A stretch of DNA of 33,241 nt from Candidatus Magnetocorallium paracelense (GTDB lineage Bacteria; Nitrospirota; Thermodesulfovibrionia; Thermodesulfovibrionales; Magnetobacteriaceae): the NCBI GenBank assembly GCA_029001845.1, contig JAREWP010000073.1, positions 1 through 33,241 of the forward strand, written 5' to 3'. A program made the translations under genes and the position numbers. The notes under the pieces are model-generated. The model saw only the letters and a list, made by a program, of their open reading frames with translations. It did no database searches and was not told where the DNA came from. Shown one piece after another: positions 8,205 through 25,572 of this stretch (positions are counted from its first letter, which is position 1; each line of letters begins with the position of its first letter).

Positions 8205-8275
8205 ATTATTGCAAATAAACTGTTTTCAATTTCATTGCCGCTAAAAAATTGAGTTAGATTCTCATCCTTCTTCCT

Positions 8276-10657: not shown

Positions 10658-11635
10658 ATGCTTTCTTCAGATGTCATAGACGATATTGTTAATGAGAGTG
10701 TCGATTATTACACAACGTACAGAAAGAGGCTTGCAGGCGCCATTCTTTTATTACCAAACACCATATCTTTTGATATAAATAATACTGATAACCGGTTTTC
10801 ATGCTTTTTTTATGAAACGGAAACGGTTTGTAATTGGAAAAAAAGGTTGCTCAATGAATTAGAAATCGTAGATTCATGTTTACTGAAACTGGGGGTAAAA
10901 ACAGTATTGGAAGATTTAAATGAAACAGTAATCTCAGTATTAAAAGTCTTTACAGATAATGGTTTATGGGAGGCCGGCGCGGAGCTGGTCGGCAGTTGGT
11001 GTTTTAATGTTTATCAGAATTATCTGGCTGTAGAACGGTTTCCTTTAAGAACGACAGACATCGATATTGCCGTACCTCTGCCTTATAATGGCGCTGCCCT
11101 GGATTTGGGAGAGCTCTTAAAAGAGCTCGGGTTGGCGGAGAGATTTTATTCCAATGGTGTTGTTTTTTATGAAGGGAACGCCTTACGGGTAGAGTTCCTT
11201 GTTCCTGAAAAGGGCAGGGGGAGTGATTCCGGTAAAATTTTAATAAAAGAGCTAAGTATATCCGCTCAACCTCTTCGCTTTCTTGATATTCTTATTTCAT
11301 TTCCATTCTTTTTAGACGTTCGTGGTGCTGGTCAGGTAAAGATTCCCATGCCTGCGGCTTTTGCCATGCATAAATTATTAATAGCCCCAAGGAGAAAGGG
11401 CAGAGGAAAGTCAGAGAAGGATTATTTACAGGCCTATTATGTGATGAAAATGCTTTTCAGGAATATTGATTATTACAGGGCCGATATTGAGATGGTAATA
11501 AAGAGACTTCATCCACGGTGGATCGAGTCCATAAAAGAATCGATTCAAAACATGAAAAAGTGTGTTCCTTTGTTGGAGGAGGAGACGGCGGAGAGAGTGG
11601 AGGCTTTTTTCAGTCAGGAGATTTTGAAGGTTTAA
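10658..11635 (+). CDS. Nucleotidyltransferase-fold protein (GSU2403/NTP_transf_8-like)
   Basis: The 325-residue cytoplasmic protein has a nucleotidyltransferase core: VGSWCF at about 111-116 supplies the GS turn and RTTDIDIAV at 131-139 supplies the paired metal aspartates, followed by a third beta strand LRVEFLVP that would hold the last acidic residue. The C-terminal half is helical, with a PMPAAFAMHKLLIA segment and a lysine-rich SEKDYLQAYY helix typical of this family. This resembles the GSU2403-type family (Pfam NTP_transf_8), whose substrate is not established. The start at ATG 10658 has no clear ribosome site. The gene converges with the TPR gene, their stop codons overlapping by four bases. 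Confidence 0.7.
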   Translation: MLSSDVIDDIVNESVDYYTTYRKRLAGAILLLPNTISFDINNTDNRFSCFFYETETVCNWKKRLLNELEIVDSCLLKLGVKTVLEDLNETVISVLKVFTDNGLWEAGAELVGSWCFNVYQNYLAVERFPLRTTDIDIAVPLPYNGAALDLGELLKELGLAERFYSNGVVFYEGNALRVEFLVPEKGRGSDSGKILIKELSISAQPLRFLDILISFPFFLDVRGAGQVKIPMPAAFAMHKLLIAPRRKGRGKSEKDYLQAYYVMKMLFRNIDYYRADIEMVIKRLHPRWIESIKESIQNMKKCVPLLEEETAERVEAFFSQEILKV

Positions 11636-12807
11636 TTAATGGCGTAGTCTTTTTCAATGTGGTCCAACATATCGAGGGCATCTCTTTTTTGCATATCAAA
11701 GGAAAGGGCTTTTCTAAAGAATTTCATGGATTCCTTTTTCCTGTCAAGCATATATAAACAGTACCCTGACATGATGTATCCTTCCCCTCTTTTGGTGTCT
11801 AATTGTACGGCTTTTTTAAATGATTCAAGGGCCTTTACGAAATTTTCCGATCTGTAGTATATCTGACCCAGCAGAAAGTGCGTGTGGGAGTCTTCTTTTT
11901 TTGAAACTGCTCTCAATAGTGTATTTATGGCGCTTTTGGTATTGTGGGCCGCTAAATACGTTTGGGCCATTTTTCTGCTTTGGTTAAGAGTGGGAGATGA
12001 ATCGAATGCCTCTTCATAGTATTGAGCCGCATCTTTGGGGATACCCAGGGAGTTTAGTAAATCGCCGAGGATTATTTTTTCTTCTTTACCCAGCTCTTTT
12101 GAGTATGAGAGCAGTTTGAGCGCAGATGCTCCTTTTTTGTACTCTTTTTTGTCTAAATAGATATCTGTAAGAACTCTCCACCACTTACGGCTGTCTGTGT
12201 CTGTTACAATTAATTTTTCCGCTGTTTCCACAGCCCTTTGGGTCATGTTCAGTTTCAAGGAAACCTGTAGTAATGCCTCGAGCCACCTGCTTTCAATAAT
12301 GTCGTTATGCCGGGAGATCAACCGTTCCAAAATGGGTAACGCTTTTTTGTTTTTTCCGGCTATGATATGACAGACAGCAGAGGAGTAAAGAAGAGATGGA
12401 TTCTTTTCATCGTTCAACTCATAACCCTTTAACAGACAGTCGCCTGCTCTGTCATACTCTTTCAAATCGTAGAGAACTTTCCCCAAATTATTCCAGGTGT
12501 CTCCATAGTCAGGATAAAGAATAATCGATTTATCGTAATGTTTTACAGCCTCTTTCTCTTTTCCGGTTTTTACGAGAGTGTTGGCAAGGGTGAACTCGAT
12601 GAGATAGTGACTTTTGTCAGGATTTTTTGTAATAAAGGTGTTGAGGATTTCATATGCTTTGTTAAAATGGCCTTTATCCAATGCCGTCTGAGCTTCATAC
12701 AGAGCCTTGTGTGCAGAATAGCCGAGTTTGGGCGGAGCGGCAAAGATCGATGGTATGAAAGGGAAATAAAGAAAGAACGTTATTATTACTATACTGCGTA
12801 TAAACAT
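11632..12807 (-). CDS. Exported TPR protein of the TonB2-type cluster
   Basis: The 391-residue protein starts with a signal peptide or membrane anchor (about 1-23, ending SIFA) and then consists of TPR repeats throughout, for example ALDKGHFNKAYEILNTFI, HYDKSIILYPDYGDTWNNLG and LESFKKAVQLDTKRGEGY. A TPR protein is the last gene of Vibrio TonB2 clusters, where it is thought to assist the energising complex. It should be the final member of the DUF3450-ttpC-exbB-exbD-tonB set here. However, a hairpin and a B repeat now separate it from tonB, and the repeat ends only three bases before its ATG, so its natural ribosome site has been lost or replaced. Expression may depend on sequence in the repeat. 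Confidence 0.85.
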   Translation of the reverse strand: MFIRSIVIITFFLYFPFIPSIFAAPPKLGYSAHKALYEAQTALDKGHFNKAYEILNTFITKNPDKSHYLIEFTLANTLVKTGKEKEAVKHYDKSIILYPDYGDTWNNLGKVLYDLKEYDRAGDCLLKGYELNDEKNPSLLYSSAVCHIIAGKNKKALPILERLISRHNDIIESRWLEALLQVSLKLNMTQRAVETAEKLIVTDTDSRKWWRVLTDIYLDKKEYKKGASALKLLSYSKELGKEEKIILGDLLNSLGIPKDAAQYYEEAFDSSPTLNQSRKMAQTYLAAHNTKSAINTLLRAVSKKEDSHTHFLLGQIYYRSENFVKALESFKKAVQLDTKRGEGYIMSGYCLYMLDRKKESMKFFRKALSFDMQKRDALDMLDHIEKDYAIN

Positions 12808-12810
12808 ATT

Positions 12811-12963
12811 AACTAAAAACAGCTATCAGCTGTCAGCCCTTTGTTTTCAACGTTTTGCATAATAACCGGCATATCATTTTTGGGTGAGTGCAGTTTTTAA
12901 TGTAATGCTTTGATTTTCCCTGGCTGACTGCTGATAGCTGACCACCGGCAGCTTTTTTAGGTT
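12811..12963. repeat. B element, copy 1
   Basis: It begins AACTAAAAACAGCTATCAGC and ends with GCTGATAGCTG and GGCAGCTTTTTTAGG, so the two ends are inverted repeats with an A-tract outside on the left and a T-tract on the right. The middle includes GGGTGAGTG, related to the core of the other copies, but is the most diverged. It lies between tonB and the TPR gene, three bases before the TPR start codon. Confidence 0.75.
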
Positions 12964-12972
12964 TAAAATAAT

Positions 12973-13013
12973 ACGACAGAGCGACACGTTGTTATATAAA
13001 GTGTCGCTGTCGT
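12973..13013 (-). terminator. Hairpin downstream of tonB
   Basis: ACGACAGAGCGACAC (12973-12987) pairs with GTGTCGCTGTCGT (13001-13013) with a two-base bulge and a 13-base loop. On the tonB strand it is followed by ATTATTTT. It may end the exbD-tonB transcript, which would isolate the TPR gene. Confidence 0.5.
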
Positions 13014-13053
13014 AATAATTGGATCCCCTCAAATTAATTTCCTATCGGAGCTG

Positions 13054-13740
13054 TTACCTTTCATCTAATGTAAATTTTATCTGTACTTTAAGCCATGTTT
13101 TTACCGGTTTTCCTTTGACCTCACCAGGTGAAAATCTCCATGACAATACCGCTCTCTCCACGGAGTCGTTAAATATCTCCGGCGGCGATGACGTAATGAT
13201 CGATATTTGAGATGTCTTGCCCTTTTCGTCTACAAGGAATTTTACTGCTACTTTTCCGGTAATTTCGAATTTTCTTGCTCTATAGGGATATTCCGGTTCT
13301 GTTTTGTAAATTGCCACAGGTTTTCTGTCCACCTCGTCATGCTCATAAAACTCTTTTAATATGGGAGTGGAAATCCCGGTTGAAGGCGTTAATGGTGCTG
13401 AAACAGGCATGCCGCCGGTCAACTTCAGATTCAGTTGAAAAGGAAGATCAGGTATGTCGATTTTTTCTATCTCCTTTGCCCTTTCAGGGGTTGCTCTGAT
13501 TTTTACTTGTGGAATCATTTTTTTCGGTTCTTTTTGTTCCTCCCTTAGTGGTTTTTCTTCTTTTTCAGGAGGAGGAGTCAGAGTTACTGATTTTATAAAG
13601 TTTACGGGAATCGCATTATCGATGATTTCCTTATTGACAGTCGAATTCGTAAAGAGTATCGGTAAAAGCGAAAATATAAGGATATTGGTAATAAGAGCGA
13701 AACAGAAAGCTGCAAAAAAACGTATTTTTATGTTATTCAT
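13054..13740 (-). CDS. tonB: TonB energy-transducing protein
   Basis: TonB spans the periplasm and passes proton-motive energy from ExbB/ExbD to outer-membrane receptors. The 228-residue protein has an N-terminal membrane helix (about 8-31), a proline- and lysine-rich linker (PPPEKEEKPLREEQKEPKK, about 56-74) and a C-terminal TonB domain from about 145 (PEYPYRARKFEITGKVAV, then VLSWRFSPGEVKGKPV, ending VQIKFTLDER). The linker is short, as in TonB2-type proteins. Its ATG overlaps the exbD stop by eight bases, so the pair is coupled. The pair is flanked by B elements on both sides. Likely clients are the two receptors encoded at 20296-22380 and 23554-25572. Confidence 0.93.
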   Translation of the reverse strand: MNNIKIRFFAAFCFALITNILIFSLLPILFTNSTVNKEIIDNAIPVNFIKSVTLTPPPEKEEKPLREEQKEPKKMIPQVKIRATPERAKEIEKIDIPDLPFQLNLKLTGGMPVSAPLTPSTGISTPILKEFYEHDEVDRKPVAIYKTEPEYPYRARKFEITGKVAVKFLVDEKGKTSQISIITSSPPEIFNDSVERAVLSWRFSPGEVKGKPVKTWLKVQIKFTLDER

Positions 13741-14155
13741 CTGAGGAAGGCAGAGATGCCGCTATGCTGATATTTTGCACGCCGGCAAGACGGCATTGAT
13801 CCATCACTTCTATCACTATGCCTGTGATGCTTGTTTTATCGGCAACAATAATTGCCGAAGCTTCGGGATTCTCTGCAAGCGATCTTTCCAAGTGCGCTCG
13901 GATGCCGAGAATATCGACTTCCTTTTTGTCGAAAAAAAGACGACCCTCTTTATCTATTCCGATAAGGATGTTACTTTTTTCCTTATAAACGGCAGTGGCG
14001 GCGGAAGGGCGTTGGACGTCAATGCCGGTCTCTTTCACGAAACTTGTTGTTACAATAAAAAATATTAAAAGAAGAAAGACAATATCTATCAGAGGCGCCA
14101 TGTTGACGACAACCGAATCGGTGCGCTTTCGTCTTTGATGTCTGATATTAATCAT
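13733..14155 (-). CDS. exbD: ExbD biopolymer transport protein
   Basis: The 140-residue inner-membrane protein has one N-terminal membrane helix, APLIDIVFLLLIFFIVTTSF (about 20-39), with the essential proton-carrying aspartate (Asp24), and a periplasmic domain ending in LAGVQNISIA. It forms the proton channel with ExbB. It overlaps tonB downstream. Upstream it is separated from exbB by 485 bases filled with three different repeats, whereas in TonB2 clusters these genes normally abut. The start ATG is 19 bases from a B element, with a weak AGGA about 14 bases upstream, so the ribosome site may be poor. Confidence 0.93.
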   Translation of the reverse strand: MINIRHQRRKRTDSVVVNMAPLIDIVFLLLIFFIVTTSFVKETGIDVQRPSAATAVYKEKSNILIGIDKEGRLFFDKKEVDILGIRAHLERSLAENPEASAIIVADKTSITGIVIEVMDQCRLAGVQNISIAASLPSSDE

Positions 14156-14173
14156 ATGAATGTCATTTATCCT

Positions 14174-14339
14174 AACTAAAAAAGCAGTCAGCTATCAGCG
14201 GTCAGCCTTCAGCTAAGGAAAGAATTGATGCTATGCCAAAATAAGCTTCACCCTATGGGTGAAAGTGTTTTACACCATAAGGTGTTGCAATGAAAAAGCT
14301 GATAGCTGATGGCTGACAGCTAAATGCTGTTTTTAGGTT
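14174..14339. repeat. B element, copy 2
   Basis: Left end AACTAAAAAAGCAGTCAGC, right end GATGGCTGACAGC followed by AAATGCTGTTTTTAGG. The core has AAGCTTCACCCTATGGGTGA, a small hairpin shared with copies 3 and 5. The outer ends pair into a long imperfect stem with T-tracts on both strands, so it could terminate transcription either way. It lies between exbB and exbD, directly upstream of the exbD start. Confidence 0.85.
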
Positions 14340-14341
14340 TA

Positions 14342-14436
14342 TAACTGCTCAGGTATTGAGATTGAAGGCTGAAGCAAAAAATCAAATGACTTTTGTTTTA
14401 CCTGATAGTCTTCAGCCTTCAGTCTATACACCTAAT
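14342..14436. repeat. C element, copy 1
   Basis: It begins TAACTGCTCAGGTATTGAG and ends with TCTTCAGCCTTCAGTC and ATACACCTAA; the ends are inverted repeats around GAAGGCTGAAG / CTTCAGCCTTC. A second copy with the same ends and a longer middle is at 17641-17780. It abuts B copy 2. Confidence 0.75.
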
Positions 14437-14477
14437 CTGGCAAAGCCAGAGCCAAAAAGGTTTCCTCCTGCATATTA

Positions 14478-14606
14478 ATGACAAATGACAAAAACCAAAT
14501 GTCAAATCAAATCCAAATGACTAAATTTCAAAGCCTGCTCACTTCCTTTCTCTTGACATTTGAGCTTTGACATTGATTTGGCCTTTGAGCTTTGAATTTG
14601 ACATTC
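14478..14606. repeat. D element, imperfect inverted repeat of TGACAAA/TTTGTCA type units
   Basis: The left half repeats CAAATGTCAAATC and CCAAATGAC units, and the right half carries their complements (TTGACATTTGAG, TTTGACATTGATTTGG, TTTGACATT). Only one copy is seen. Together with B2 and C1 it fills the gap between exbB and exbD. Confidence 0.65.
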
Positions 14607-14640
14607 AGAAATAATGTTGCTTTTTTGCGCACAATTCCAT

Positions 14641-15231
14641 TTATACATGTCTTTTCAGTACTGAGAGAAACTCTTCCAGATGATTATCCATGTTTTTCGC
14701 CCGTTGATTGAGAAAGGAACTCATGATCAGGCCGGGGATTGCAATGATAAGCCCGCTTTGAGTTGTAATCAGGGCCGTTGAAATACCCCCTGCCATTGCT
14801 TTTGCGTTTCCTGTGCCAAAAAATGAAATGACATCAAAGGTTGTAATCATGCCTGCTACGGTGCCGAGCAGGCCCAGTAGTGGTGATATGGCAGCGAGAA
14901 CGGCTATGAGGGAAAGGTTTTTTTTAATCCCCGATTTCTCGACAGTCGTAGATAATTCAATTCTCCTGATATCGATTTTATGCTCTGTACAGGCGGATTC
15001 AAAGAGGTTTTTTAAGAGTCGTGACTTGATCCCTCTGCTGCCGTCAGGCGCCTTTCCATTACAAAGCAGGGAAACGCCCTCTTCCATGGAGATGTCTCTC
15101 TTTAATAAACCATGGAAAAAAAACAGTCTCTCCATTATAAGCGTCCACATAAAAATCGAGTTAACCAAAAGCACTGCCATGACAATACCGCCTGCATAGA
15201 GATATTCGTATATGAAGTCAAACATATGCAC
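14641..15231 (-). CDS. exbB: ExbB / TolQ-family proton channel protein
   Basis: The 196-residue inner-membrane protein has three membrane helices: about 13-33, 103-125 (LIAVLAAISPLLGLLGTVAG, the conserved TolQ/ExbB core) and 145-170 (ISTALITTQSGLIIAIPGLI). With ExbD it forms the proton-driven motor for TonB. Its short length and lack of a periplasmic extension mark it as the canonical ExbB, distinct from the long TtpC-like protein encoded two bases upstream. The tight spacing implies coupling to that gene. Downstream, repeats separate it from exbD. Confidence 0.92.
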   Translation of the reverse strand: MHMFDFIYEYLYAGGIVMAVLLVNSIFMWTLIMERLFFFHGLLKRDISMEEGVSLLCNGKAPDGSRGIKSRLLKNLFESACTEHKIDIRRIELSTTVEKSGIKKNLSLIAVLAAISPLLGLLGTVAGMITTFDVISFFGTGNAKAMAGGISTALITTQSGLIIAIPGLIMSSFLNQRAKNMDNHLEEFLSVLKRHV

Positions 15232-15233
15232 TG

Positions 15234-16610
15234 TTATCTGCTTCTTAAAATTATATTAACAAGGGCAACGGACTTCTCTTCCAGGTCGTCTGCTATGGAG
15301 TCGACTCTGCCTGACAGAAATGAATGCATTAACATAATTGGTATGGCAACTGATAAACCCAGCATTGTAGTCATCAGTGCTTCGGATATTCCGCCGGCCA
15401 TTAATCTGGGGTCTCCTGTACCGTAGAGAGTAATTGCACGAAAAGTGCCGATCATTCCTGTTACTGTACCAAGGAGTCCCATTAATGGCGCAATCGCTCC
15501 CAATATATTCAAGGTCGGGATAAATCGTTCCAGTCCGGGGAGCTCTTTCAAAATGCCCTCTTGAAGAATGCTCTCTATTGTTTCTTTATCTTCGTTTCTC
15601 GCCTTGATTCCCGATAACAGCACATTAAACAGGGGACGTCCCTTTTTATCGGTAAGTAATTTTTCGCACTCGTTCCACTTTTTATCCATAGCCAGAGTAC
15701 TTAAGCGGTTAATCATAGAAGTGGAATTTTTGTGAACCAGGGAAAGAAAGATAACTCTTTCCAAAATAATCATGACCGCTGCCATCCCAATCGCCAATAT
15801 AGGCCACACAAGAGGCCCTCCTTCACGGATACGTTCAATAATCGCAGGTTTGCCGGTGATTTGTCTGAGAGCTGCGCCTCCGGAAAGATCGATTGCAACA
15901 TCTTCGCTCTTTCCCTCCATATATTTTTTAAGTGTTTTTACAATATCTCCAGGTGGAGGTGGCAGAGCAAAAAACTGCTTCCCAGATTCCGAATATTTTA
16001 ACAGACCGGTATGGCCGCCATTTTTCCAGGCAGCCGTAAACTTTCCCACAGTGAGAATGGTTCCTTTTTCTTCCGATCCCGATTGCGATATATAACTGCC
16101 CTTTTTCAGAGAAACCTCGCCGGAAAGATCGATTTCCCTTAACATGGAATCGCTGATTAGCTGCATATCGTCGATTCCCGGGAAGCGACCTTCTTTCCGA
16201 ATCAATCCGATTCGATCCATCCTCTCTCTCTGTTCTGCTGTAAAATGGGATTGTCTGAAAATCGATTCCAGCTCTCCGGCGGCGATTGCCACGGAACCGG
16301 CCAAGGCGCGGAGATCCATATTTTCATTTGCTAGAGTTTTCGTAAGCTCTGCTTCCTGTTTCGATAATTCGCTGATCTCCTTTTTCATGGTTTCCAGTTG
16401 CAACGCCATTTGCTTTGTTGTTTGCTCCATTTCGGTGATATCTCTTTTAAGGGATTCCCTGTCTTTTTCGATTCTCTCTCTGCTTTCTTCCAGTTCTCTG
16501 ACTGCCTTCCGGTGATCCTCTTGCGCTTTTTTGAAAATCACTCTCATGTCTTCTCCATAAAGGGGTAAAACCTGAAACAGCAAAATAAAAAGGGTAACAG
16601 CAATTTTCAT
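15234..16610 (-). CDS. ttpC: TtpC-like long ExbB homologue with periplasmic coiled coil
   Basis: The 458-residue protein has a signal peptide (about 1-20, ending PLYGED), a long charged coiled coil (about 25-115), a periplasmic domain up to about 255, then a TolQ/ExbB unit with three membrane helices (about 268-288, 370-395 with LNILGAIAPLMGLLGTVTGM, and 410-435 with EALMTTMLGLSVAIPIMLM). This matches TtpC, the extra ExbB-like subunit of Vibrio TonB2 systems, in length, architecture and position. It is needed for TonB2 function there, probably by bridging the inner membrane complex to the cell envelope. Its start overlaps the stop of the DUF3450 gene by four bases and its stop is two bases from exbB. 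Confidence 0.9.
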   Translation of the reverse strand: MKIAVTLFILLFQVLPLYGEDMRVIFKKAQEDHRKAVRELEESRERIEKDRESLKRDITEMEQTTKQMALQLETMKKEISELSKQEAELTKTLANENMDLRALAGSVAIAAGELESIFRQSHFTAEQRERMDRIGLIRKEGRFPGIDDMQLISDSMLREIDLSGEVSLKKGSYISQSGSEEKGTILTVGKFTAAWKNGGHTGLLKYSESGKQFFALPPPPGDIVKTLKKYMEGKSEDVAIDLSGGAALRQITGKPAIIERIREGGPLVWPILAIGMAAVMIILERVIFLSLVHKNSTSMINRLSTLAMDKKWNECEKLLTDKKGRPLFNVLLSGIKARNEDKETIESILQEGILKELPGLERFIPTLNILGAIAPLMGLLGTVTGMIGTFRAITLYGTGDPRLMAGGISEALMTTMLGLSVAIPIMLMHSFLSGRVDSIADDLEEKSVALVNIILRSR

Positions 16611-17383
16611 TTGACCATAATCCTCCCTACAGGCAGTTTTACAAATTCTATGCTTCTCTGTCGTTCAGCGATTTGGACAGCCTTTTTTAGTTCAGATCTA
16701 TATTTTGAAGGAAGGGGGAGCCATTGCTTTTTTGACGGATGATAATGACCTGTGTTTTTATAATCAGTTGTGATGAAAAAGAGAGATATTCGGCCCACTC
16801 TTAAAATATCGGCCATGATTCGATCACCTTGGAAAAGAATTTTTTCAGGATACACTTCAACAGAGCGCCCGTACTCGGTTTCTTTCCGCAGGGCTTCCAT
16901 TACTTTGGCGTATTTTTCTGAAGAATCCTTTTCAGGATCGGCCAGCGTATCTTTCAACGATGAAATAACAGCTTTTCTCTTTTCTAAATGAAAGGGCAGG
17001 CCCCTGTTTATGGAGTCATTCAGTTTTTTTATAACAGAATCGAGGTATGAATGCAACTCCTCTTGTACGCGAGTGCTCTCTTTTATTCTTCTTTTCATCT
17101 CGGAAATTTTCTCACTTTTTATGGAGAGCGATCTGCCGGTCGTTTCAAGCTGTCTATTGAGTCTTTTTTTCTCTTTGAGGAGAGACTTATAGCTGCTTTT
17201 TATATCGGCCATTTCCTCTACCCATTGGTCTTCCTGTTTCTGGCTCCTTTGCTTGATATCCAGAGTTTTTTCCACCTGCTCTCTGACAATGCTGATTTCG
17301 TTTTCCGAATGTATGAAATCGGGAGAGAATAAAAGTGTCACCATTGCTACAGTTATAAATAGTGTTTTTGTTTTTTTATACAT
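16607..17383 (-). CDS. DUF3450 exported coiled-coil protein
   Basis: The 258-residue product has a signal peptide (about 1-26) and a long coiled coil (about 30-115, rich in Glu, Lys and Arg), followed by a globular domain that includes YGRSVEVYPEKILFQGD and the ISLFFITTDYKNTGHY strand pair. This is the DUF3450 family, whose gene is characteristically the first of TtpC-ExbB-ExbD-TonB-TPR clusters. It is presumed to act in the periplasm with the TtpC coiled coil; no biochemical role is established. It is the first gene of the minus-strand run. Only a weak AGAGGA lies upstream of the ATG, and the region before it is occupied by an A repeat. Confidence 0.85.
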   Translation of the reverse strand: MYKKTKTLFITVAMVTLLFSPDFIHSENEISIVREQVEKTLDIKQRSQKQEDQWVEEMADIKSSYKSLLKEKKRLNRQLETTGRSLSIKSEKISEMKRRIKESTRVQEELHSYLDSVIKKLNDSINRGLPFHLEKRKAVISSLKDTLADPEKDSSEKYAKVMEALRKETEYGRSVEVYPEKILFQGDRIMADILRVGRISLFFITTDYKNTGHYHPSKKQWLPLPSKYRSELKKAVQIAERQRSIEFVKLPVGRIMVK

Positions 17384-17410
17384 TTTCGCTATAACATCCT
17401 CTGTTCAATG

Positions 17411-17534
17411 TCATTAACTTAAGGAATAAAGCGCCTTCCGCCTTCAGCGGCTAAACTCGAAGGCTCCGATTAGCTGCGCCTGCTCAGAGATGATCCGCTT
17501 CCGTCGGAAGGTGCTTCACCCCTTAAGTTGATGG
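17411..17534. repeat. A element, copy 1 (124 bp)
   Basis: TCATTAACTTAAGG (17411-17424) and CCTTAAGTTGATGG (17521-17534) are terminal inverted repeats. An inner pair is GCGCCTTCCG / CGGAAGGTGC. Between them is a GC-richer body containing CTAAACTCGAAGGCTCCG. Copies 2 and 3 have the same length, orientation and body. It carries no reading frame of note and has the look of a small non-autonomous element. Confidence 0.85.
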
Positions 17535-17640
17535 TTTAACCATCTGTTAATATCTCATTATGTTGCCTTTACAGCAACAATTATACTGACTTCAGGTTCC
17601 GGGTTCTGTAGAACGATATTAAAAAAAAAATTGTATTTTT

Positions 17641-17809: not shown

Positions 17810-18130
17810 TTATACTTTGGGAGGTTTATCATTTAAATCGGTCATTAGCGGAGAGGAAAATAATGCACCGGCCACTTGTAATTCTTCGACTTGAGGCGCA
17901 GAGCCGTCGATTATCTCTGTTTCATGGATCACTTGAACTTCATGACCACTGCTTAATGAGGCGCTTCCTTTATGACAAAGATCCAGGGTAAATATATTTT
18001 CAATCGTACTGTTGTTCGATCCGGTTGGTTGAAATTCAAAAGGCGACATCAGGACAGGTATGAAGCCAATTAGGAGAAAGAGAGAAAAGAGTTTTTTTGA
18101 AAAGAGGGTGTTTTTTCTCGATATTATCAT
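17810..18130 (-). CDS. Small exported Cys-His protein, paralogue-like to 18896-19192
   Basis: The 106-residue protein starts with a basic stretch and one hydrophobic signal/anchor (SLFLLIGFIPVLM, about 16-28), then SPFEF, a FTLDLCHKGS motif, an acidic middle, and ends in LNDKPPKV. The pattern hydrophobic helix - P-F - F-[TS]-L-[DN]-hydrophobic-C - PPK end is shared with the protein at 18896-19192, although overall similarity is low. ATG 18130 is preferred over TTG 18166, which adds a charged leader; neither has a strong ribosome site. The gene is enclosed by A elements and is divergent from the DUF2318 gene. I do not recognise a named family. A role in metal handling is suggested only by its neighbours, the CH motif and export. 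Confidence 0.55.
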   Translation of the reverse strand: MIISRKNTLFSKKLFSLFLLIGFIPVLMSPFEFQPTGSNNSTIENIFTLDLCHKGSASLSSGHEVQVIHETEIIDGSAPQVEELQVAGALFSSPLMTDLNDKPPKV

Positions 18131-18206
18131 CTTATTAAGATAAAACAAGGAGATTGAAAAACGCAAATCAAAGAATGTTAAGATTCTGTAATTATGTAAT
18201 CGATGT

Positions 18207-18330
18207 CATTAACTTGAAGGAGCAAAGCACCTTCCGCCTTCAGCAGCTAAACTCGAAGGCTCCGATTCGCTGCGCCTTCTCAAACATGACCCGCTTCGTC
18301 GGAAGGTGCTTCACCCTTTAAGTGAATGGT
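18207..18330. repeat. A element, copy 2 (124 bp)
   Basis: It has the same ends and body as copy 1 (TCATTAACTTGAAGGAGC left, GCTTCACCCTTTAAGTGAAT right) and the same orientation. It lies between the divergent small gene at 17810-18130 and the DUF2318 lipoprotein gene, about 40 bases before the latter. Confidence 0.85.
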
Positions 18331-18367
18331 ATTGATTCTGTAATAATGAATGTTTGCATAATGGGAA

Positions 18368-18838
18368 GTGAATAGGGTAGTATCACAAAGAGTGAGAAAA
18401 CTATATTTTGTATTAATGATGTCTGTTTTTTTGTTGTTTCTTTATTTACAAGCCGGTTGCAAAAAAACTTCCCCATATACTCCGGTGACTTTTTCGGACA
18501 ATGAATTTGTTGTCAATACAGAGCTCTTAATCGAGAAAAAACCTGTTTTTTATAAGTTCGCTGTCAAAGAGAGGGAAATATCTTTTTTTATAGTGAAAGT
18601 AAACGGTGAGGTGCTGTCTTTTTTTAATTTATGCAGGGCATGTAAAGGAAGCGGAGTTGCCGGTTACAGAGGCGAGAGTGAGCATATCGCCTGTAAAACC
18701 TGCAAAATAATAATCCCCTATGAAGGGCTGCACAGCGGTGTGGGGAACTGCATTCCCTTTACGCTTGAGGGGCGTGCTTCAGATGGAACGTACGTAATTA
18801 AAAAAGAGAGTATTTTGAAAGGGATCAGGCATTTCTAA
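18368..18838 (+). CDS. DUF2318-type Cys-rich lipoprotein (metal-uptake associated)
   Basis: The 156-residue protein has a hydrophobic signal and a lipobox, LQAGC (Cys31 lipidated), so it is membrane-anchored and faces the periplasm. The C-terminal half carries the DUF2318 cysteine pattern: LCRACKGSGVAGY (Cys89, Cys92), HIACKTCK (Cys109, Cys112) and GVGNCIPF (Cys128). DUF2318 domains occur with Ftr1/FetM-type iron and copper-linked uptake systems and are thought to bind a metal or an iron-sulfur centre. The start is either GTG 18368 or GTG 18392; both would keep the signal peptide, and only a weak GGGAA precedes the first. It heads the plus-strand block that leads to the OprC-like receptor, which suggests a periplasmic copper or iron redox/binding role. 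Confidence 0.75.
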   Translation: MNRVVSQRVRKLYFVLMMSVFLLFLYLQAGCKKTSPYTPVTFSDNEFVVNTELLIEKKPVFYKFAVKEREISFFIVKVNGEVLSFFNLCRACKGSGVAGYRGESEHIACKTCKIIIPYEGLHSGVGNCIPFTLEGRASDGTYVIKKESILKGIRHF

Positions 18839-18895
18839 AGATAAAGAGTAATCGCCTGTTGACAAAGAACGTTTCTCTGTGTTTTGATATTTTAT

Positions 18896-19192
18896 ATGAA
18901 AATTTTATCAGTTGCCATAATAATTTTTATTTCATGCCAGATTCTATCGGCTCCTCTGTCTGTAAACCCTTTTAGTACATCATCGGAAGTAGGGCCTTCT
19001 CTTTTTAGTCTGAATGTTTGCCAGGGAGATTCTCTCTTTTCACCATCTTTTTCATTTTCTCAGACAATTTGCGAGCCGACTTTCAATATCGAAAAAGCTG
19101 CATCTATTTACACCTTTGGTATGATCGACACAACAATAAAATCCCCTATATTTACTACAAAGACCTTAAAACCTCCTAAATATTCTTCCTGA
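18896..19192 (+). CDS. Small exported Cys protein, paralogue-like to 17810-18130
   Basis: The 98-residue product has a clear signal peptide (MKILSVAIIIFISCQILSA, about 1-19), then PLSVNPF, the FSLNVCQGDS motif, a Ser/Phe-rich middle with a second cysteine (TICEP), and ends LKPPKYSS. The hydrophobic helix, P-F, F-S-L-N-V-C and the PPK terminus parallel the protein at 17810-18130. ATG 18896 was chosen over TTG 18884 because it gives a standard signal peptide. There is no clear ribosome site, but a TTGACA lies at 18859-18864. The family is not recognised. It sits 57 bases after the DUF2318 gene, so cotranscription is likely. Confidence 0.55.
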   Translation: MKILSVAIIIFISCQILSAPLSVNPFSTSSEVGPSLFSLNVCQGDSLFSPSFSFSQTICEPTFNIEKAASIYTFGMIDTTIKSPIFTTKTLKPPKYSS

Positions 19193-19387
19193 ATACTCCC
19201 AATTCAATCTGTTTTTCCTGATCAAAAGCAGGCAATTCCTGACATCTTTCAGCTTCAAAAGATAAGGTATAAGTAATATACCGATGCTTTTCGTTTGGAA
19301 ATAAATGTCATCTGCTTTAAAGAGATTGCCGGTAAGTTTCAGCCGCGATTTCTCCGGCTATGAATCTTCCTGAGCAACCCCCTTTTT

Positions 19388-19510
19388 ATGAATTCAAATT
19401 ATGCTGTCACAGGAGAGACTCTTCTTCTTGAGGAGATCAAAGCACAAGCAAAAAAAACTAAAACAGAGAGTTTTGAAGTCAAGAAGATCAGAGAGAGCAA
19501 TCCGATGTAA
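19388..19510 (+). pseudogene. Relic of a TonB-dependent receptor N-terminus
   Basis: A 40-codon frame contains GETLLLEEIKAQAKK followed by a TESFEV / IRESN stretch. It aligns with residues 21-51 of the receptor at 20296-22380 (GETILLEEIEVKAKK, TESLEV, IRESN), with about 22 identities in 31 positions and one missing codon. A TAA follows at 19508-19510 and no plug or barrel sequence continues in any frame that I can see. The signal peptide is also missing. It covers the TonB-box region and is best read as the remains of a duplicated or replaced receptor gene. The flanking stretch 19193-19387 holds no gene that I can support. Confidence 0.7.
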
Positions 19511-19621
19511 ATGGAGCCGATTTTGCTTCAGTCTTTTATTGCAGTCTTTAATTCTAAACATTTGAGTCGTTACAGATAGAGAACAAAAAAGTGTTTTCAC
19601 AGAAAGGAGGTGACAAGAGTC

Positions 19622-19918
19622 ATGACAAAAAGAAAACTAATTTTAGTGCTTTTCTTTGCTGCGGCAATGGTTTTTTTTATGAGTGCTGAAAATCAGCAGG
19701 CAGAAGCTGCATATTGGGACGAGATTTATGTTGCAGTGTCTCCAAAAGCAGCCGTGCCGATTAATACTGACGGCGGAGTAACTGAAGCCGAATATTGGCA
19801 GGATGCACATGTCGTAATATCCCCCAAAATGAAAGTAGAGATCAATACTGACGGAGGAGTAACTTCAGATATTTACTGGAGTGAAATTTTTGTTTCTGTA
19901 TCTCCGCTTATTTCCTGA
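19622..19918 (+). CDS. Small exported protein of 27-residue tandem repeats
   Basis: The 98-residue protein has a signal peptide (about 1-30, ending QQAEAA). The mature part of about 68 residues is two full 27-residue repeats and a partial third: each starts YW, then [DE]-x-x-[YHF]-V-x-[VI]-S-P-K, then V-x-INTDGGVT. The third copy stops after SEIFVSVSPLIS. Start ATG 19622 was chosen because AAGGAGG at 19604-19610 lies 11 bases before it; the GTG at 19610 overlaps that ribosome site. The strong ribosome site suggests high expression. I do not recognise a family. Alternating hydrophobic residues suggest beta hairpins. It lies between a receptor relic and the OprC-like receptor, so a periplasmic or surface role in metal uptake is possible but only by position. 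Confidence 0.75.
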   Translation: MTKRKLILVLFFAAAMVFFMSAENQQAEAAYWDEIYVAVSPKAAVPINTDGGVTEAEYWQDAHVVISPKMKVEINTDGGVTSDIYWSEIFVSVSPLIS

Positions 19919-19963
19919 AATGCCTGCAATTGCACAATTTTACGGTTCATGATACTTAACAGC

Positions 19964-19999
19964 GCCATGAAGCATGCTTTGAAAAGGGTGCTTCATGGC
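19964..19999 (+). terminator. Strong hairpin after the repeat-protein gene
   Basis: GCCATGAAGCA (19964-19974) and TGCTTCATGGC (19989-19999) form an 11-bp stem with a 14-base loop, 46 bases after the stop codon. No clean T-run follows on the plus strand (AAAAAATGTTTT), so intrinsic termination is uncertain; it could instead protect the mRNA end. Confidence 0.45.
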
Positions 20000-20045
20000 T
20001 AAAAAATGTTTTATAACTCAAATGCTTGAATGAGAAACAGGTTAA

Positions 20046-20067
20046 TTGAATGCATAGGAATTTTCAT
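20046..20067 (+). promoter_or_regulatory. Motif shared with the porin upstream region
   Basis: TTGAATGCATAGGAATTTTC plus AT nearly repeats 6023-6043, with one substitution and one single-base gap over 22 positions. Both lie upstream of outer-membrane protein genes (80 and about 250 bases before the ATG). It may be a shared regulator site or a fragment of a repeat. Confidence 0.35.
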
Positions 20068-20114
20068 TAGTTTGTAAAGAAGAAAACGTGTTATGGAAGG
20101 TGTTCAAGAACACT

Positions 20115-20146
20115 GGATTCCCGCTAAAGGGACTGCGGGAATGACG
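20115..20146. repeat. Short GGATTCCCGC/GCGGGAATG palindromic repeat
   Basis: ATTCCCGC (20117-20124) and GCGGGAAT (20135-20142) are exact inverted arms, followed by GACG. This is the widespread GGATTCCCGC...GCGGGAATGACG intergenic repeat type known from many proteobacterial genomes. Confidence 0.65.
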
Positions 20147-20295
20147 GTATTTTTTCTTTGAAGCCATAGGTGATTATGACAGCTGAATCCGGAGCGTGAA
20201 CAGCCAATCAACTGAATATAAACTCAGGCAACATTAAAGAGTCCAAAGAACGTTAGCTTTATTTCTATTAGATTAACCAAATAAAGGAGGTCCGA

Positions 20296-22380
20296 ATGTT
20301 ACGTTACATGATTCTTTTATTATCTTTTTTTATTATAAATCCCGGTATTTCATTTGGAGAGACGATTCTTCTCGAGGAGATCGAAGTGAAAGCCAAAAAA
20401 GAGACTGAAACGGAAAGTCTGGAGGTCAGGGAGATCAGAGAGAGCAATGCAAGAGATGCAGGGGAGGCTCTTGAAGATGTTCCCAGTATCAATAAAATCA
20501 GAAAAGGCGCTATTGGCAACGATGTTATTTTAAGAGGATATAAAAGAGACGATGTCAATGTCCTGATAGACGGGATGAGAATTCATGGGGCCTGCCTGAA
20601 CAGAATGGACCCCCCTGCTTTTCATCTCGATTTTGCAGAAGTGGATAAAATCGATGTTGAAAAAGGCGCATTCGACGTGAAACATCCCGGTAGTCTGGGT
20701 GGTATGGTGAATATCAAAACCAAGTCTCCTAAAAAAGGTTTTCATGGAGAAGTAAATCTGGGATACGCCTCTTTTGAGAACTTCACAAGTTCCGCCAATG
20801 CATCCTATGGTGCTGACAGATATAGTTTTCTTGCCGGAGTCGCCTATAAGGAGTCCGAAGCATACAGAGACGGAGACGATGATCGTTTTACGGAAGTCTA
20901 TTCCGACAGCGCCGCAAACAGGTATAAGCCTCAACATGAGGATGGTACTGCCTATGAGATGTTAACGGGCTGGACAAAGTTTTCCATTAAACCTTCTTAC
21001 AGTCAGAATATGGAAATATCTTATTCCAGACAAGAGGGGGACGACACCATGTATCCCTATCTGTTTATGGATTCCATAAAAAACGATACAGACCGGTTGA
21101 GCATGGATTATGATATAAAGAATTTTGCCGGTTCGGGGAATGACTTGAAATTTCAGGTATACTACAATTATATAGAACACGATATGTCCGATGAAAGGCG
21201 GTGCAGTTCTCAGACTGACAAAACTTCCTGCACCGGAGATATGCAGAGGCGATACAGTATGCTCAGTGAGGCGAGATCTTATACGACCGGAGGAAAGATC
21301 GAAAGCAAATTAGATCTTATGGGTGAAACCTATATAGGCGTGGATTTCTATCTCAGAAACTGGAATGTACGCAATACAATGTTCAAGCAAATGATGTCAA
21401 TGTATCAGACTCAGATAACCATGCCCGATGTAGATACAACGAATGTAGGAATCTATTTTGAGCAGAAAAATAATCTTACCGACAGATTAACGCTCTCATA
21501 CGGGCTAAGGGCGGACAGAACCAATATGGATACAGGGGAAAACAGGGATGCTGTTTTTCAACAATACTTTAATACAGTCGATACGGATCAGACAGATACT
21601 TATGGCAGCGGAAATATAAAGCTCGATTATAAATTCACAGACTCTTTCAGTTCATTTATAGGCTTTGGCCATACAGTAAGAATACCGGACCCCCAGGAGA
21701 GGTATATGTCTTTCGAAAGAATGGGGACCATGGAAAAACCGGACAGAGTCGGGAATCCCGATCTTGATGAAGTTAAAAATAATGAGTTAGACTGGGGCGT
21801 GAAATATAAGGCTGGGGCGGTTCTTCTTAAAGGTCAGGTATTTTACAGCAACATAGAGGATTATATCGTTTTGAGAAATATATATAACGGTTCCGATTAT
21901 GCCATGTCGTATAAAAATGTAAACGCCACAATGTACGGAGGCGAGGCTTCGGCAAGAGTGGCCTTTCCGAGGGATTTCTACTTTTTGCCAAATGATCTCT
22001 ATTTACTCTCTTCCATATCTTACACCCGTGGTAAAAATGATACGGACGATACGGACCTCCATGAAATTCCTCCCTTCAGAGGCAGTATTGCATTGAGATA
22101 CGACAACGGGAAGTATTTCGGAGAGATAGAGGGTGAATTTGCGGACGAGCAGACAAGGGTGGACGAGCAACTGGACGAGGAAGAGACATCGGGCTGGGGT
22201 ATCGCCAATTTTAAGGCAGGGTATGAGTATAAAAAAATCAAGTTATTTGCCGGAGTCAGCAATCTCTTTGACAAAAAGTATTATGAGCATCTCTCCTATT
22301 TTCGTCATCCCTTTAGCAGTGGTGTTAAGGTGCCTGAACCGGGACGGACGCTTTATGTGAATCTTCAGTATACGTTCTAA
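20296..22380 (+). CDS. TonB-dependent receptor, OprC/NosA-like (probable copper receptor)
   Basis: This 694-residue outer-membrane protein imports its ligand with TonB energy. It has a signal peptide (about 1-20), a TonB-box region (ILLEEIEV, 24-31), a plug domain with ILRGYKRDDVNVLIDGMRI and PGSLGGMVNIKT, and a 22-strand-type barrel ending NLQYTF. Two motifs point to copper: C-x-x-x-M in HGACLNRMDPP (Cys100, Met104), and H-x-M in IEHDMSD (His295, Met297). Together they match the CxxxM and HxM ligands described for Pseudomonas OprC, and their separation (195 residues) is close to OprC. A Met-rich loop (TMFKQMMSMY, about 361-370) could also bind Cu(I). AAGGAGG lies five bases before the ATG. 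Upstream are the repeat protein and the DUF2318 lipoprotein genes. Iron-siderophore transport is the alternative. Confidence 0.88.
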   Translation: MLRYMILLLSFFIINPGISFGETILLEEIEVKAKKETETESLEVREIRESNARDAGEALEDVPSINKIRKGAIGNDVILRGYKRDDVNVLIDGMRIHGACLNRMDPPAFHLDFAEVDKIDVEKGAFDVKHPGSLGGMVNIKTKSPKKGFHGEVNLGYASFENFTSSANASYGADRYSFLAGVAYKESEAYRDGDDDRFTEVYSDSAANRYKPQHEDGTAYEMLTGWTKFSIKPSYSQNMEISYSRQEGDDTMYPYLFMDSIKNDTDRLSMDYDIKNFAGSGNDLKFQVYYNYIEHDMSDERRCSSQTDKTSCTGDMQRRYSMLSEARSYTTGGKIESKLDLMGETYIGVDFYLRNWNVRNTMFKQMMSMYQTQITMPDVDTTNVGIYFEQKNNLTDRLTLSYGLRADRTNMDTGENRDAVFQQYFNTVDTDQTDTYGSGNIKLDYKFTDSFSSFIGFGHTVRIPDPQERYMSFERMGTMEKPDRVGNPDLDEVKNNELDWGVKYKAGAVLLKGQVFYSNIEDYIVLRNIYNGSDYAMSYKNVNATMYGGEASARVAFPRDFYFLPNDLYLLSSISYTRGKNDTDDTDLHEIPPFRGSIALRYDNGKYFGEIEGEFADEQTRVDEQLDEEETSGWGIANFKAGYEYKKIKLFAGVSNLFDKKYYEHLSYFRHPFSSGVKVPEPGRTLYVNLQYTF

Positions 22381-22589: not shown

Positions 22590-22665
22590 TTAATATTTTT
22601 GTAATTATTCAGCGAAGAGCATTAATCGATGTAATTGGAGAATATTTACAAATGAGGAGTCAATG

Positions 22666-22789
22666 TCATAAACTTAAGGAGCAAAGCACCTTCCGCCTTC
22701 AGCGGCTAAACTCGAAGGCTCCGCTTTGCTGCGCCTTCTCAAACATGACCCGCTTACGTCGGAAGGTGCTTCACCCCTTAAGTTAATGG
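22666..22789. repeat. A element, copy 3 (124 bp)
   Basis: It has the same terminal inverted repeats and body as copies 1 and 2 (TCATAAACTTAAGGAGC left, GCTTCACCCCTTAAGTTAAT right), in the same orientation. It ends about 50 bases before the start of the secreted four-cysteine protein. Confidence 0.85.
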
Positions 22790-22840
22790 TATCGAATGAG
22801 GAGTTTTACTCCGCTACCCTGAGAGATGAGGTGTTTAAAA

Positions 22841-23326
22841 ATGAAGAAAACAGTGTTTAGAACCGGCAGGATGACAGTTATTACTTTTTTGGCATTCATT
22901 TTTTCGTTATTCGCTGCTCTGCCGGCTGTCTATGGAGAGGATATCTCCTTTAGCAGTCAATGCGCAGGCGGCGGCTCCAGATCGGCGACAGGTACTTATG
23001 ACGAAACGTCAGGCGAGTTCTATCTTGAGTTCATTGTACAAGATTGTGTTATTCGTAATACCATTTTAAACGGAACGATAATAAGCAGCGGCGTTTTTAA
23101 ATATTCTATCCTTGGAAGTACTGCCAATATCGACAGCAGCACGGAATTTACAGGTACTGCCATGTCCGAGGGAAACTCAGCCGATTTAGACTGCACTCAT
23201 ACGGGAGCCGGGTCCTATGATCTGAAAGAAAAAATATTAACCGGCAATATGAGTACAACCTGTAACAGCTCCGGTAACTTCTCGATCCCGCTAACCGACT
23301 TACTGGCAGGGGCCTTTCCATTTTAA
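22841..23326 (+). CDS. Secreted four-cysteine protein of unknown function
   Basis: The 161-residue protein has a signal peptide (about 1-32, ending AVYGED) and a beta-rich, Gly/Ser/Thr-rich mature part with four cysteines (in SSQCAGG, VQDCVIR, LDCTHTG and STTCNSS), which could form two disulfides. Repeated phrases with a T-G-T or L-N-G-T pattern (ATGTYDETSG, LNGTIISSG, FTGTAMSEG, LTGNMSTT) suggest a small beta sandwich or barrel. I do not recognise a family. ATG 22841 was chosen over ATG 22826 because GAGGTG (22828-22833) then lies about seven bases upstream. It sits between A copy 3 and B copy 3, between the two receptor genes. Confidence 0.65.
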   Translation: MKKTVFRTGRMTVITFLAFIFSLFAALPAVYGEDISFSSQCAGGGSRSATGTYDETSGEFYLEFIVQDCVIRNTILNGTIISSGVFKYSILGSTANIDSSTEFTGTAMSEGNSADLDCTHTGAGSYDLKEKILTGNMSTTCNSSGNFSIPLTDLLAGAFPF

Positions 23327-23553: not shown

Positions 23554-25572
23554 ATGAATATATCAGTCAGACAACGAATTTTTTATCCATTATTTCTTAC
23601 CATACTTTTCCTTGTAAGCATAAGTTCCCGGGCGTGGTGTCAGCTGCAGCACGAATTTGAAGCAACCGAGGAAGAGTTGCTTTTTGTGGAAATACCCATC
23701 GTTGTTACGGCATCAAGGAAAGAACAATACATCACGGAAGCTCCGTCCAATATTACTGTAATCACTTCAGAGGAGATAAGACAATCCGGCGCCCGTACAA
23801 TTGGAGATATTTTGAAGAGAATTCCCGGTATAGAGATTAACATGCACCGCAAAGGATTGGGCAGAATATGGATTCGGGCGGTAACCGGTCGTTATAATGA
23901 CAAAATCCTCTTTATGATCGACGGTTATCCCTGGCGTGAACTGGTGTACGGGCAATTTCCCGTAGACGAACAACTCCCGCTTGCTCATATAAAAAGAGTC
24001 GAGGTTATTAAAGGTCCCGGCTCTTCTCTTTACGGTACAAACGCCTTTGCCGGTGTCATTAATGTAATTACCAAGGATGCTTCCGATATTGATGGTTGTG
24101 AAATGGAAGGCGGAGTGGGAAACTGGGACACCCAGAGCCATCATCTGCTTTGCGGCAAAGAAAAGAAATCCGCCGGTTTTGTTTTCTTTGCAAACTATTA
24201 CAACAGTGAAGGCGATAAGCATGAGAGAGACAGGAAGGGAGAATCAACGGACAGACGAGACCCCAAAAAACAGATCGAGCTGAATCTGAAGGGATATTGG
24301 GGCGATTTTACGTTCGGCGTCAAACATCTCTGGTATGACTGGGAGTATCTTATGTATCCAGATTCAAGAGACCGATATGATGATTGGGAGAATTCTTTTT
24401 TTCATATTGGTTACTCGAAATCCCTTTCCGATCAACTCCATCTCATGGTAAGCTCTTACTACAACCTCTTCGATCACAATACAGAGAAAAGAAAGAGAAA
24501 AAACGATTCACTGACTAAGGTCGCCGACCGACAGGAGAGAACCGATGTGTTTGGCGCAGGAATACAAGTGGATTATAACCCCTTTAAAAACCATTTCATT
24601 ACGGCAGGTATTGAATACGAAAGAGAAATGGCGGACAAACTCCTTGAAACATACTATAAAACAGATGACCCCGACCAGGAGGAGCAAACCGCTCGTTGGG
24701 CGGAGCCGGCAAGACCCCATAATTCCAATTGGGGATTGTATTTGGAGGATACCTATAAGATCCTGCCCTGGATAAATATTGTGGCCGGTGTTCGCTATGA
24801 CAAACATGAGGAGTATGGAGGCGCCTTAAGTCCTCGGGGCGCGATCATTCTCAAGCCTGCGGAGAATCTGGTAACAAAAATTTTATATGGCCAGGCCTTT
24901 CGTGCTCCAAGCTATCGTGAGATGTACATAAGAGAAGATAATGACGAGAATAACGGTAACAGGAACCTTGACCCCGAATATATACGGACAGCGGAATTGA
25001 ATGTATCTTATGCGCCAATGAAACAAATGAAGCTGGATGTCAGTCTTTTTTTTCAGGAAATCGATGACGCCATAGGGAGCAGGGAAACAGAGGACGGAAG
25101 CATGTATGACAACCTTGGCGAAATCGATATTCATGGTATAGAACCTGGTATTGAAGTGGAACTTTTCAATAAAAAACTGACTGCATTCGCCAATTACACC
25201 TATTATTTCAAAGCGGAAGACGACAATGGCGACAATTTACCGAATATTGCCAGACAGATGGCCAATGTCGGATTAAATATAAAGACCGGGAAATATCTTA
25301 CTATCAATACAACGTTAAGCTATGTAGGGAGAAGAAATAAGCCCGACGATTATCAGGGGCAAGTGGACGATGCAGACAGAAAAGACAATCTGGGAGGATA
25401 TGAAAGAGTCGATTTGGTCCTTACAGGCAGGAATCTGCCTGTCGACATTTCTCTTGGAGTTTACAATATTTTTAATGTTCAGTCCTTCAACCCATCCTAT
25501 GAGCCGGGCAGCTATTATGACATCGAACATCCCGGCAGAAGCGCTCTGTTGAAAGTCGCCTATACGTTTTAA
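23554..25572 (+). CDS. TonB-dependent outer-membrane receptor
   Basis: The 672-residue receptor has a signal peptide (about 1-29), a clear TonB box (EIPIVVTASR, about 47-56), a plug with ITVITSEEIRQSGARTIGDI, ILFMIDGYPW and VEVIKGPGSSLYGTNAFAGV, and a barrel ending LLKVAYTF. The plug is of the BtuB/CirA/iron-complex type; it lacks the CxxxM motif of the first receptor, so a different ligand is likely (siderophore, haem, cobalamin or a related chelate). No cobalamin riboswitch was found upstream. The ATG has no ribosome-site match because B copy 3 ends seven bases before it, and B copy 4 begins at its stop codon. The gene is thus enclosed exactly by two copies of one repeat. Energy probably comes from the TonB cluster at 11632-17383. 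Confidence 0.92.
   Translation: MNISVRQRIFYPLFLTILFLVSISSRAWCQLQHEFEATEEELLFVEIPIVVTASRKEQYITEAPSNITVITSEEIRQSGARTIGDILKRIPGIEINMHRKGLGRIWIRAVTGRYNDKILFMIDGYPWRELVYGQFPVDEQLPLAHIKRVEVIKGPGSSLYGTNAFAGVINVITKDASDIDGCEMEGGVGNWDTQSHHLLCGKEKKSAGFVFFANYYNSEGDKHERDRKGESTDRRDPKKQIELNLKGYWGDFTFGVKHLWYDWEYLMYPDSRDRYDDWENSFFHIGYSKSLSDQLHLMVSSYYNLFDHNTEKRKRKNDSLTKVADRQERTDVFGAGIQVDYNPFKNHFITAGIEYEREMADKLLETYYKTDDPDQEEQTARWAEPARPHNSNWGLYLEDTYKILPWINIVAGVRYDKHEEYGGALSPRGAIILKPAENLVTKILYGQAFRAPSYREMYIREDNDENNGNRNLDPEYIRTAELNVSYAPMKQMKLDVSLFFQEIDDAIGSRETEDGSMYDNLGEIDIHGIEPGIEVELFNKKLTAFANYTYYFKAEDDNGDNLPNIARQMANVGLNIKTGKYLTINTTLSYVGRRNKPDDYQGQVDDADRKDNLGGYERVDLVLTGRNLPVDISLGVYNIFNVQSFNPSYEPGSYYDIEHPGRSALLKVAYTF

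Follow-up and report, generated by a model that had tools for sequence, protein, structure and literature searches.

A putative family of metal-sensing leader peptides beside an OprC-like, probably copper-importing receptor in Candidatus Magnetocorallium paracelense

To our knowledge, nascent peptides that sense copper are few, and the ones on record are DUF2946-type. Here we analyze two small open reading frames (ORFs) that accompany the gene of an OprC-like TonB-dependent receptor in Candidatus Magnetocorallium paracelense (Nitrospirota), within a stretch of 33,241 nucleotides (assembly GCA_029001845.1, contig JAREWP010000073.1, positions 1 to 33,241 of the forward strand) hereafter called the window. 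The most pertinent system for comparison is CruR of Bordetella pertussis (BP2923, DUF2946), which heads copper operons at a long distance from the following gene and has its CXXC placed 45 residues ahead of RAPP at the C-terminus, a spacing that varies by no more than one or two residues (PMC9426467). Mutants changed in the CXXC lose the copper response and those changed in RAPP lose expression altogether (PMC9426467), while CruR has been found to arrest ribosomes in vitro (PMC12992588). In Klebsiella, a DUF2946 ORF is found in the equivalent place before a TonB copper receptor. CutF of Rhodobacter capsulatus has several properties in common with those proposed for the small ORFs considered here, as it is an exported peptide that senses copper as a nascent chain, has a Cys motif and a C-terminus rich in proline, and acts on the downstream gene by way of an RNA structure, but its Cys motif is CxxxC, copper raises its expression and its stem-loop hides the Shine-Dalgarno sequence instead of forming a terminator (PMC9973294).

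Our analysis indicates that the two small ORFs of the window are likely to be cis-acting leader peptides, not the accessory proteins for which an earlier note on this DNA had taken them. The features on which the argument turns are the following:

20296-22380, plus strand: OprC-like TonB-dependent receptor, probable copper importer, 694 aa, with Cys100, Met104, His295 and Met297
17810-18166, minus strand: putative leader ORF 1, likely ATG start 18130; LDLCH, 50 residues, PP (NDKPPKV end)
18884-19192, plus strand: putative leader ORF 2, likely ATG start 18896; LNVC, 50 residues, PP (LKPPKYSS end)
18368-18838, plus strand: FtrD-like (DUF2318) lipoprotein with two CxxC plus a fifth Cys, between both leaders

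Leader ORF 2, the N-terminus of which is hydrophobic, is oriented to the receptor, and leader ORF 1 to a TonB/ExbBD cluster, across a gap of 427 nt that contains a 131-nt repeat. The two ORFs are homologous to each other, and a small exported-type ORF that aligns with both copies stands directly 5' of the receptor in five of the six related receptors of the class, its stop lying about 40 to 640 nt before the receptor ORF as called. Of 230 class genomes searched with a profile built on seven sequences, 94 yield members; some of them have several, although the genome under study has only two, both in the window. Members also occur outside the class, as seen in a phylum-wide sample with a profile blind to the C-terminus.

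The family has a single invariant Cys and a C-terminal Pro-Pro, which lies 1 to 7 residues ahead of the stop in all 47 members analyzed. The blind profile finds Pro-Pro in the last eight residues of 29 of 31 leaders, and at nine in one more, against a background of 4.7% among ORFs of 60-200 codons; leader loci in other lineages end in Pro-Pro as well. The motif is preceded by R, H, K or Q and typically reads [ED][RHKQ]PP[RKQ]. The distance from the invariant Cys to Pro-Pro is 49-51 residues in 47/47 members and, in the final alignment (n=40), 48-51 residues, with exactly 50 in 34 of the 40, even though the median identity over the intervening spacer is only 22%. Many leaders have a further Cys or His 14-23 residues past the invariant Cys, at a position that is not fixed, and their N-termini combine positive charge with a hydrophobic stretch (judged by eye). 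According to ORF calls by a simple script, 58 of 61 leaders share the strand of their 3' neighbor, at a median distance of 192 nt, whereas only half (29/59) share that of the gene on their 5' side. The C-terminal Pro-Pro, the fixed Cys spacing and the position at the head of operons are the reasons for which we read these ORFs as nascent-chain sensors.

The same properties bear on whether the small exported-type ORFs could instead be mature periplasmic copper-binding chaperones made together with the receptor, which would suit their hydrophobic N-termini, compatible with export, and the presence of Cys and His. We consider this unlikely, since nothing but one Cys and Pro-Pro is invariant while the length of the spacer is kept despite its low identity, a situation that fits the ruler of a ribosome-bound sensor better than a folded chaperone; moreover, the leader is the first ORF with a long gap behind it, and Pro-Pro at the C-terminus would have no evident role in a mature chaperone. 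The conserved Cys was also considered as part of a lipobox and rejected, for the LDVC in question lies about 20 residues past the hydrophobic stretch, and D and V occupy positions at which a lipobox requires small residues.

In relation to CruR, the leaders share the nature of a small exported-type ORF heading copper-uptake operons, the C-terminal Pro-Pro, the fixed Cys spacing (45 residues to the motif in CruR versus 50 here) and the long gap to the next gene. A difference is the terminator RNA linked to many members of the leader family, where CruR relies on Rho. The family looks as if it works like CruR, which is not to say that its members are CruR proteins.

The RNA behind the leaders was analyzed in relatives. 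Gaps between leader and downstream gene fold into more stable structures than their shuffles, with a mean z of -2.7 versus -1.8 for other same-strand gaps, although terminator-like hairpins by count alone are not clearly more frequent (30/49, versus 19.3 in shuffles). In 14 loci a T-run begins 140-156 nt past the leader stop, preceded by hairpins that are mostly strong. The order of elements in this RNA is UUCCGAAG..CGAGU about 7-12 nt past the stop, two variable hairpins, CUCCCC and then ACUCGGCUCCGCUUCGGAA, the latter constituting the 5' arm of the terminator. The UUCCGAAG strand is able to pair with this 5' arm, and such pairing would exclude the terminator. It is retained with altered bases in some divergent members, as UCGAAG/CUUCGA (L131), CCGAGG/CCUCGG (L121) and CUGAAG/CUUCAG (L092). 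The antiterminator hardly varies in the aligned core, hence its weak covariation there, and covariation of the terminator does not exceed the level of shuffles. Examples of the RNA, all outside the window, are:

L012, 11444-11605, minus strand: RNA between the leader and an OprC-like receptor
L096, 5086-5240, minus strand: RNA
L114, 4966-5119, minus strand: RNA

R1, a covariance model derived from the terminator, gives 63 matches in 51 of 229 genomes of the class, and 61 of these matches lie directly behind a leader. One further match is strong and has no leader upstream (L203, G069:C244), and another is weak, partial and probably due to chance; a further RNA (L205, G071:C103) follows a leader with a broken reading frame, and L203 and L205 are possible cases of decay. 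These two loci, together with the strong conserved structure and its terminator, are what would be expected if the RNA were an independent riboswitch with the ORF as a mere neighbor. We regard such a riboswitch as very unlikely, given that nearly all matches are directly behind a leader, that the two inner hairpins of the RNA vary freely, and that many leaders, including both copies in the window, have no RNA of this kind. Comparison of 19 loci with Rfam 15 yields no match at gathering level.

Several of the genes that the leaders precede are linked to copper. In L014, L015 and L016 the receptors directly behind the leader pass the copper-receptor cut-off of TIGR01778 (740, 718 and 686 bits, respectively), and other leaders are directly followed by NosL (PF05573). 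FtrD-like genes and leaders are found at most 5 kb apart in 24 instances, versus 0.65 expected from random placement, a comparison in which related genomes are not independent. The earlier note had proposed to look for its gene set in other genomes, and the set of leader, FtrD-like lipoprotein and OprC-like receptor does recur, in L011 and L014. Other genes behind leaders encode TonB receptors, cytochromes of the split-Soret and multiheme kinds, 4Fe-4S proteins and TlpA-like proteins (some identified by eye). The frequency of such split-Soret or multiheme cytochromes, 4Fe-4S and TlpA-like proteins downstream would agree with leaders that are arrest-type regulators of another signal, be it iron, heme, the periplasmic redox state or Sec export, and the survey of CutF relatives offers a parallel in that some with His-rich motifs serve nickel or cobalt genes (PMC9973294). 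With bona fide copper receptors and NosL directly behind several leaders, and with the leader pair of the window flanking an OprC-like receptor set, another signal has a minor share of the probability.

The lipoprotein at 18368-18838 was correctly named in the earlier note, as it passes the Pfam gathering cut-off (PF10080, 47.4 bits vs 26.3), and it is present as a single copy in the genome (6.0 Mb). It has the two CxxC and the fifth Cys of FtrD-like/DUF2318 proteins such as Campylobacter FetA (PMC10783030), but differs from the FetA case in being a stand-alone lipoprotein alongside copper-type leaders and not an iron permease.

The receptor itself, with Cys100/Met104 and His295/Met297 195 residues apart, had been proposed to be of the OprC type on account of these motifs, a proposal that is sustained by sequence, fold and ligand conservation alike. 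OprC binds copper through Cys143/Met147 (CxxxM) and His323/Met325 (HxM) (PMC8610252), which are separated by 180 residues. In a phmmer alignment built without regard to the motifs, GACLNRMD of the receptor falls on GACPNRMD of OprC and EHDM on DHIM, so that Cys100, Met104, His295 and Met297 align with Cys143, Met147, His323 and Met325, respectively. OprC is the best PDB relative (E 4e-40, followed by PhuR with 3e-9), and the best NCBIfam model is TIGR01778, the TonB copper receptor, with 255 bits. An AlphaFold model of the receptor (predicted local distance difference test, pLDDT, 85.6; predicted template modeling score, pTM, 0.85) retrieves OprC as the first 28 Foldseek matches, with E down to 4e-49, before PhuR with 3.5e-38. 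Across 27 relatives the ligand Cys and His do not change and 21 sequences have both Met, all four ligands thus being retained in 21/27 down to about 25% identity. In the remaining six relatives both Met are swapped jointly, to Lys and Pro, and their metal may be another one. They are found in Omnitrophota-type genomes and others (L037, L038, L041, L042, L043 and L048), several with a Fur-like regulator upstream (by eye).

With OprC/NosA of Pseudomonas (TIGR01778) the receptor shares the fold, the TonB-dependent architecture, the positions of CxxxM and HxM and an upstream ORF of the leader type; on the other hand, identity in the fold match is about 23%, and the receptor scores under the equivalog cut-off, belongs to another group of organisms and is adjoined by an FtrD-like lipoprotein and a full TonB cluster. 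CrtA (BfrG) of B. pertussis, which supplies heme-copper oxidases, is likewise a copper receptor of the TonB-dependent type with a leader ORF in front of it, but constitutes a distinct subfamily that imports chelated copper (PMC12914433), whereas the receptor of the window has the OprC-type site. The possibility that it imports a ferric siderophore, heme or zinc, its ligand residues being leftovers, draws on the score below the copper cut-off, on weaker matches to heme and siderophore models and on the six relatives with Lys and Pro in place of both Met. This seems to us quite unlikely in view of the clear gap that separates OprC from the next best match by both sequence and fold, and of the four ligands kept in most relatives at low identity. 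We are rather confident, then, in calling the receptor OprC-like and probably a copper receptor.

The closest relative of the receptor, with 51% identity, is found in a genome of the same family (G006), while receptors at 41-48% identity belong to Deltaproteobacteria and Aquificota. Since an OprC-like receptor is found at 1e-30 in only 7 of 120 relatives (own genome counted), the patchy occurrence of the gene suggests that it may have moved between lineages. In two deltaproteobacterial contigs without leader, a weakly NosL-like protein is encoded two genes 5' of an OprC-like receptor (L018:3756-4382, plus strand, in which the match has E 0.012, under the cut-off; L019:660-1292, plus strand). 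In Desulfuromonadales, Cys-rich exported-type ORFs with a PPDPPP end are followed by a TonB-like gene and then by the receptor (L023:6478-6969, L028:6609-7115 and L031:6596-7111, all on the plus strand); these ORFs are perhaps another kind of proline-ended leader.

A copper importer had been thought unusual in what was presumed to be an anaerobe, a presumption that the genome does not support. A genome block for an aa3-type oxidase contains the genes of COX1, COX2 and COX3, of an SCO-type protein and of a member of the UbiA family, the latter likely heme O synthase; a second block encodes a cbb3-type COX1 and FixO beside a P-type ATPase. With both of these copper-dependent oxidases encoded, a copper importer is not odd for this organism. 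The genome also encodes a NosL. A search for NosZ gave no match in it, nor in the control genomes, and is hence uninformative.

We consider it fairly probable that the window contains a copper-uptake locus under leader-peptide control, with copper as the most likely signal. In such a locus the OprC-like receptor would bind copper at its CxxxM-HxM site and import it, powered by the adjoining TonB/ExbB/ExbD system, and the FtrD-like lipoprotein would probably handle or reduce the metal in the periplasm. Each leader would act as a sensor during its own translation, with the Pro-Pro at the C-terminus slowing or arresting the ribosome; the conserved Cys, 50 residues before Pro-Pro, would then be near or outside the tunnel exit, where it could bind metal, and binding would alter the arrest and thereby switch the genes that follow. 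If the analogy with CruR holds, ribosomes would be arrested at low copper, with the genes on, and released by copper, with the genes off. The two leaders of the window, which point apart, may co-regulate the receptor and its TonB energizer. Homology and fold of the receptor are observed, as are, for the leaders, membership of one family, the constant spacing, the C-terminal Pro-Pro, the place at the head of operons and the repeated occurrence with copper genes. We infer in this scheme the identity of the metal, ribosome arrest, its polarity, the control of receptor and TonB cluster in the window and the role of the lipoprotein. The broader proposition, to which we give an even chance, is that of an undescribed phylum-wide family of metal-sensing nascent peptides that has no detectable similarity to CruR or CutF and whose putative arrest motif is another one. 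In many of its members this family would act via a coupled intrinsic terminator/antiterminator RNA, and it would govern operons of copper uptake and periplasmic redox functions in Nitrospirota-type bacteria.

Several observations weigh against these propositions. The leaders have neither the CXXC nor the R-A/G-P-P of CruR, show no match to PF11162 (DUF2946) in Pfam scans and, when compared by hhalign with eight DUF2946-type leaders, have a probability of 12.6 and no profile similarity; common descent with DUF2946 is accordingly unsupported by profile comparison. The first class-wide leader profile contained the Pro-Pro columns, for which reason the profile blind to the C-terminus was used, itself built from members that the first had recovered. 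Many leaders head operons of cytochromes or other redox proteins, in which the link to copper is not clear. The 255 bits of the window receptor are below the curated equivalog cut-off of TIGR01778, 472 bits, and this is why we name it OprC-like and probably a copper receptor. The R1 search finds no terminator RNA in the window, nor in the listed genomes of its family, and the Rfam scan of the window gives one chance-level match only; a Rho-type or other output must therefore be assumed there. Finally, the receptor starts 1.1 kb 3' of leader ORF 2, and a decayed receptor copy intervenes:

19352-19504, plus strand: decayed receptor copy (first ~50 codons), ~160-190 nt 3' of leader ORF 2

This copy, which forms direct repeat D3 and has an internal stop, is 54% identical to receptor residues 2-52 and implies that leader ORF 2 was formerly placed directly before a receptor, while the present distance of the intact gene weakens the claim that the leader still controls it.

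If the broader proposition is true, it would suggest that metal sensing of this sort has more than one origin, or else has diverged much further than assumed; the suggestion is founded on a family with no detectable similarity to the peptides of the DUF2946 kind that has a fixed Cys-to-Pro-Pro ruler in >90 genomes and a matching terminator RNA. The leader family points to exact residues and bases for mutation and flags copper operons that lack annotation in a phylum studied little so far, and at the locus of the window 'unknown accessory proteins' give way to a testable control mechanism.

The other features of the window are these:

19610-19918, plus strand: repeat ORF, small and exported-type, with YW..I.V.VSPK....INTDGGVT units
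16607-17383, minus strand: DUF3450 protein, first gene of the TonB energizer cluster (PF11932 E 9e-63)
15234-16610, minus strand: ExbB-type protein with N-terminal coiled-coil extension (PF01618 E 3e-31)
14641-15231, minus strand: second ExbB-type protein (PF01618 E 3e-26)
13733-14155, minus strand: ExbD (PF02472 E 1e-30)
13054-13740, minus strand: TonB (PF03544 E 3e-20)
11632-12807, minus strand: TPR protein, end of the TonB cluster (TPR models)
22826-23326, plus strand: exported-type Cys-containing protein 3' of the receptor, matching no known family
23554-25572, plus strand: second TonB receptor

The whole TonB cluster thus spans 11632-17383 on the minus strand. The earlier note had placed two small exported proteins in a plus-strand block. 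Of the small ORFs, 18884-19192 is on the plus strand, 17810-18166 is on the minus strand and 19610-19918 contains no Cys. The latter repeat ORF was examined as a member of the copper set and rejected, since it lacks Cys and its relatives are confined to its own genome, with two paralogues there and none in 59 relatives. Similarly, a link of ORF 22826-23326 to the receptor was discarded, because its relative in the nearest receptor-bearing genome (G006) sits on a different contig; three of 59 other genomes have relatives of this ORF, and the one in G006 matches best. Scans of the gaps of the window for promoters and terminators gave about chance level, no more. Near the TonB cluster, a FecR-domain protein is followed by a CHASE2-adenylate/guanylate cyclase (7485-10585, plus strand). 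The 131-nt element mentioned above folds as a long hairpin and is present in three copies of 65-91% identity (17405-17535, 18201-18331 and 22660-22790), being probably a small mobile palindromic repeat.

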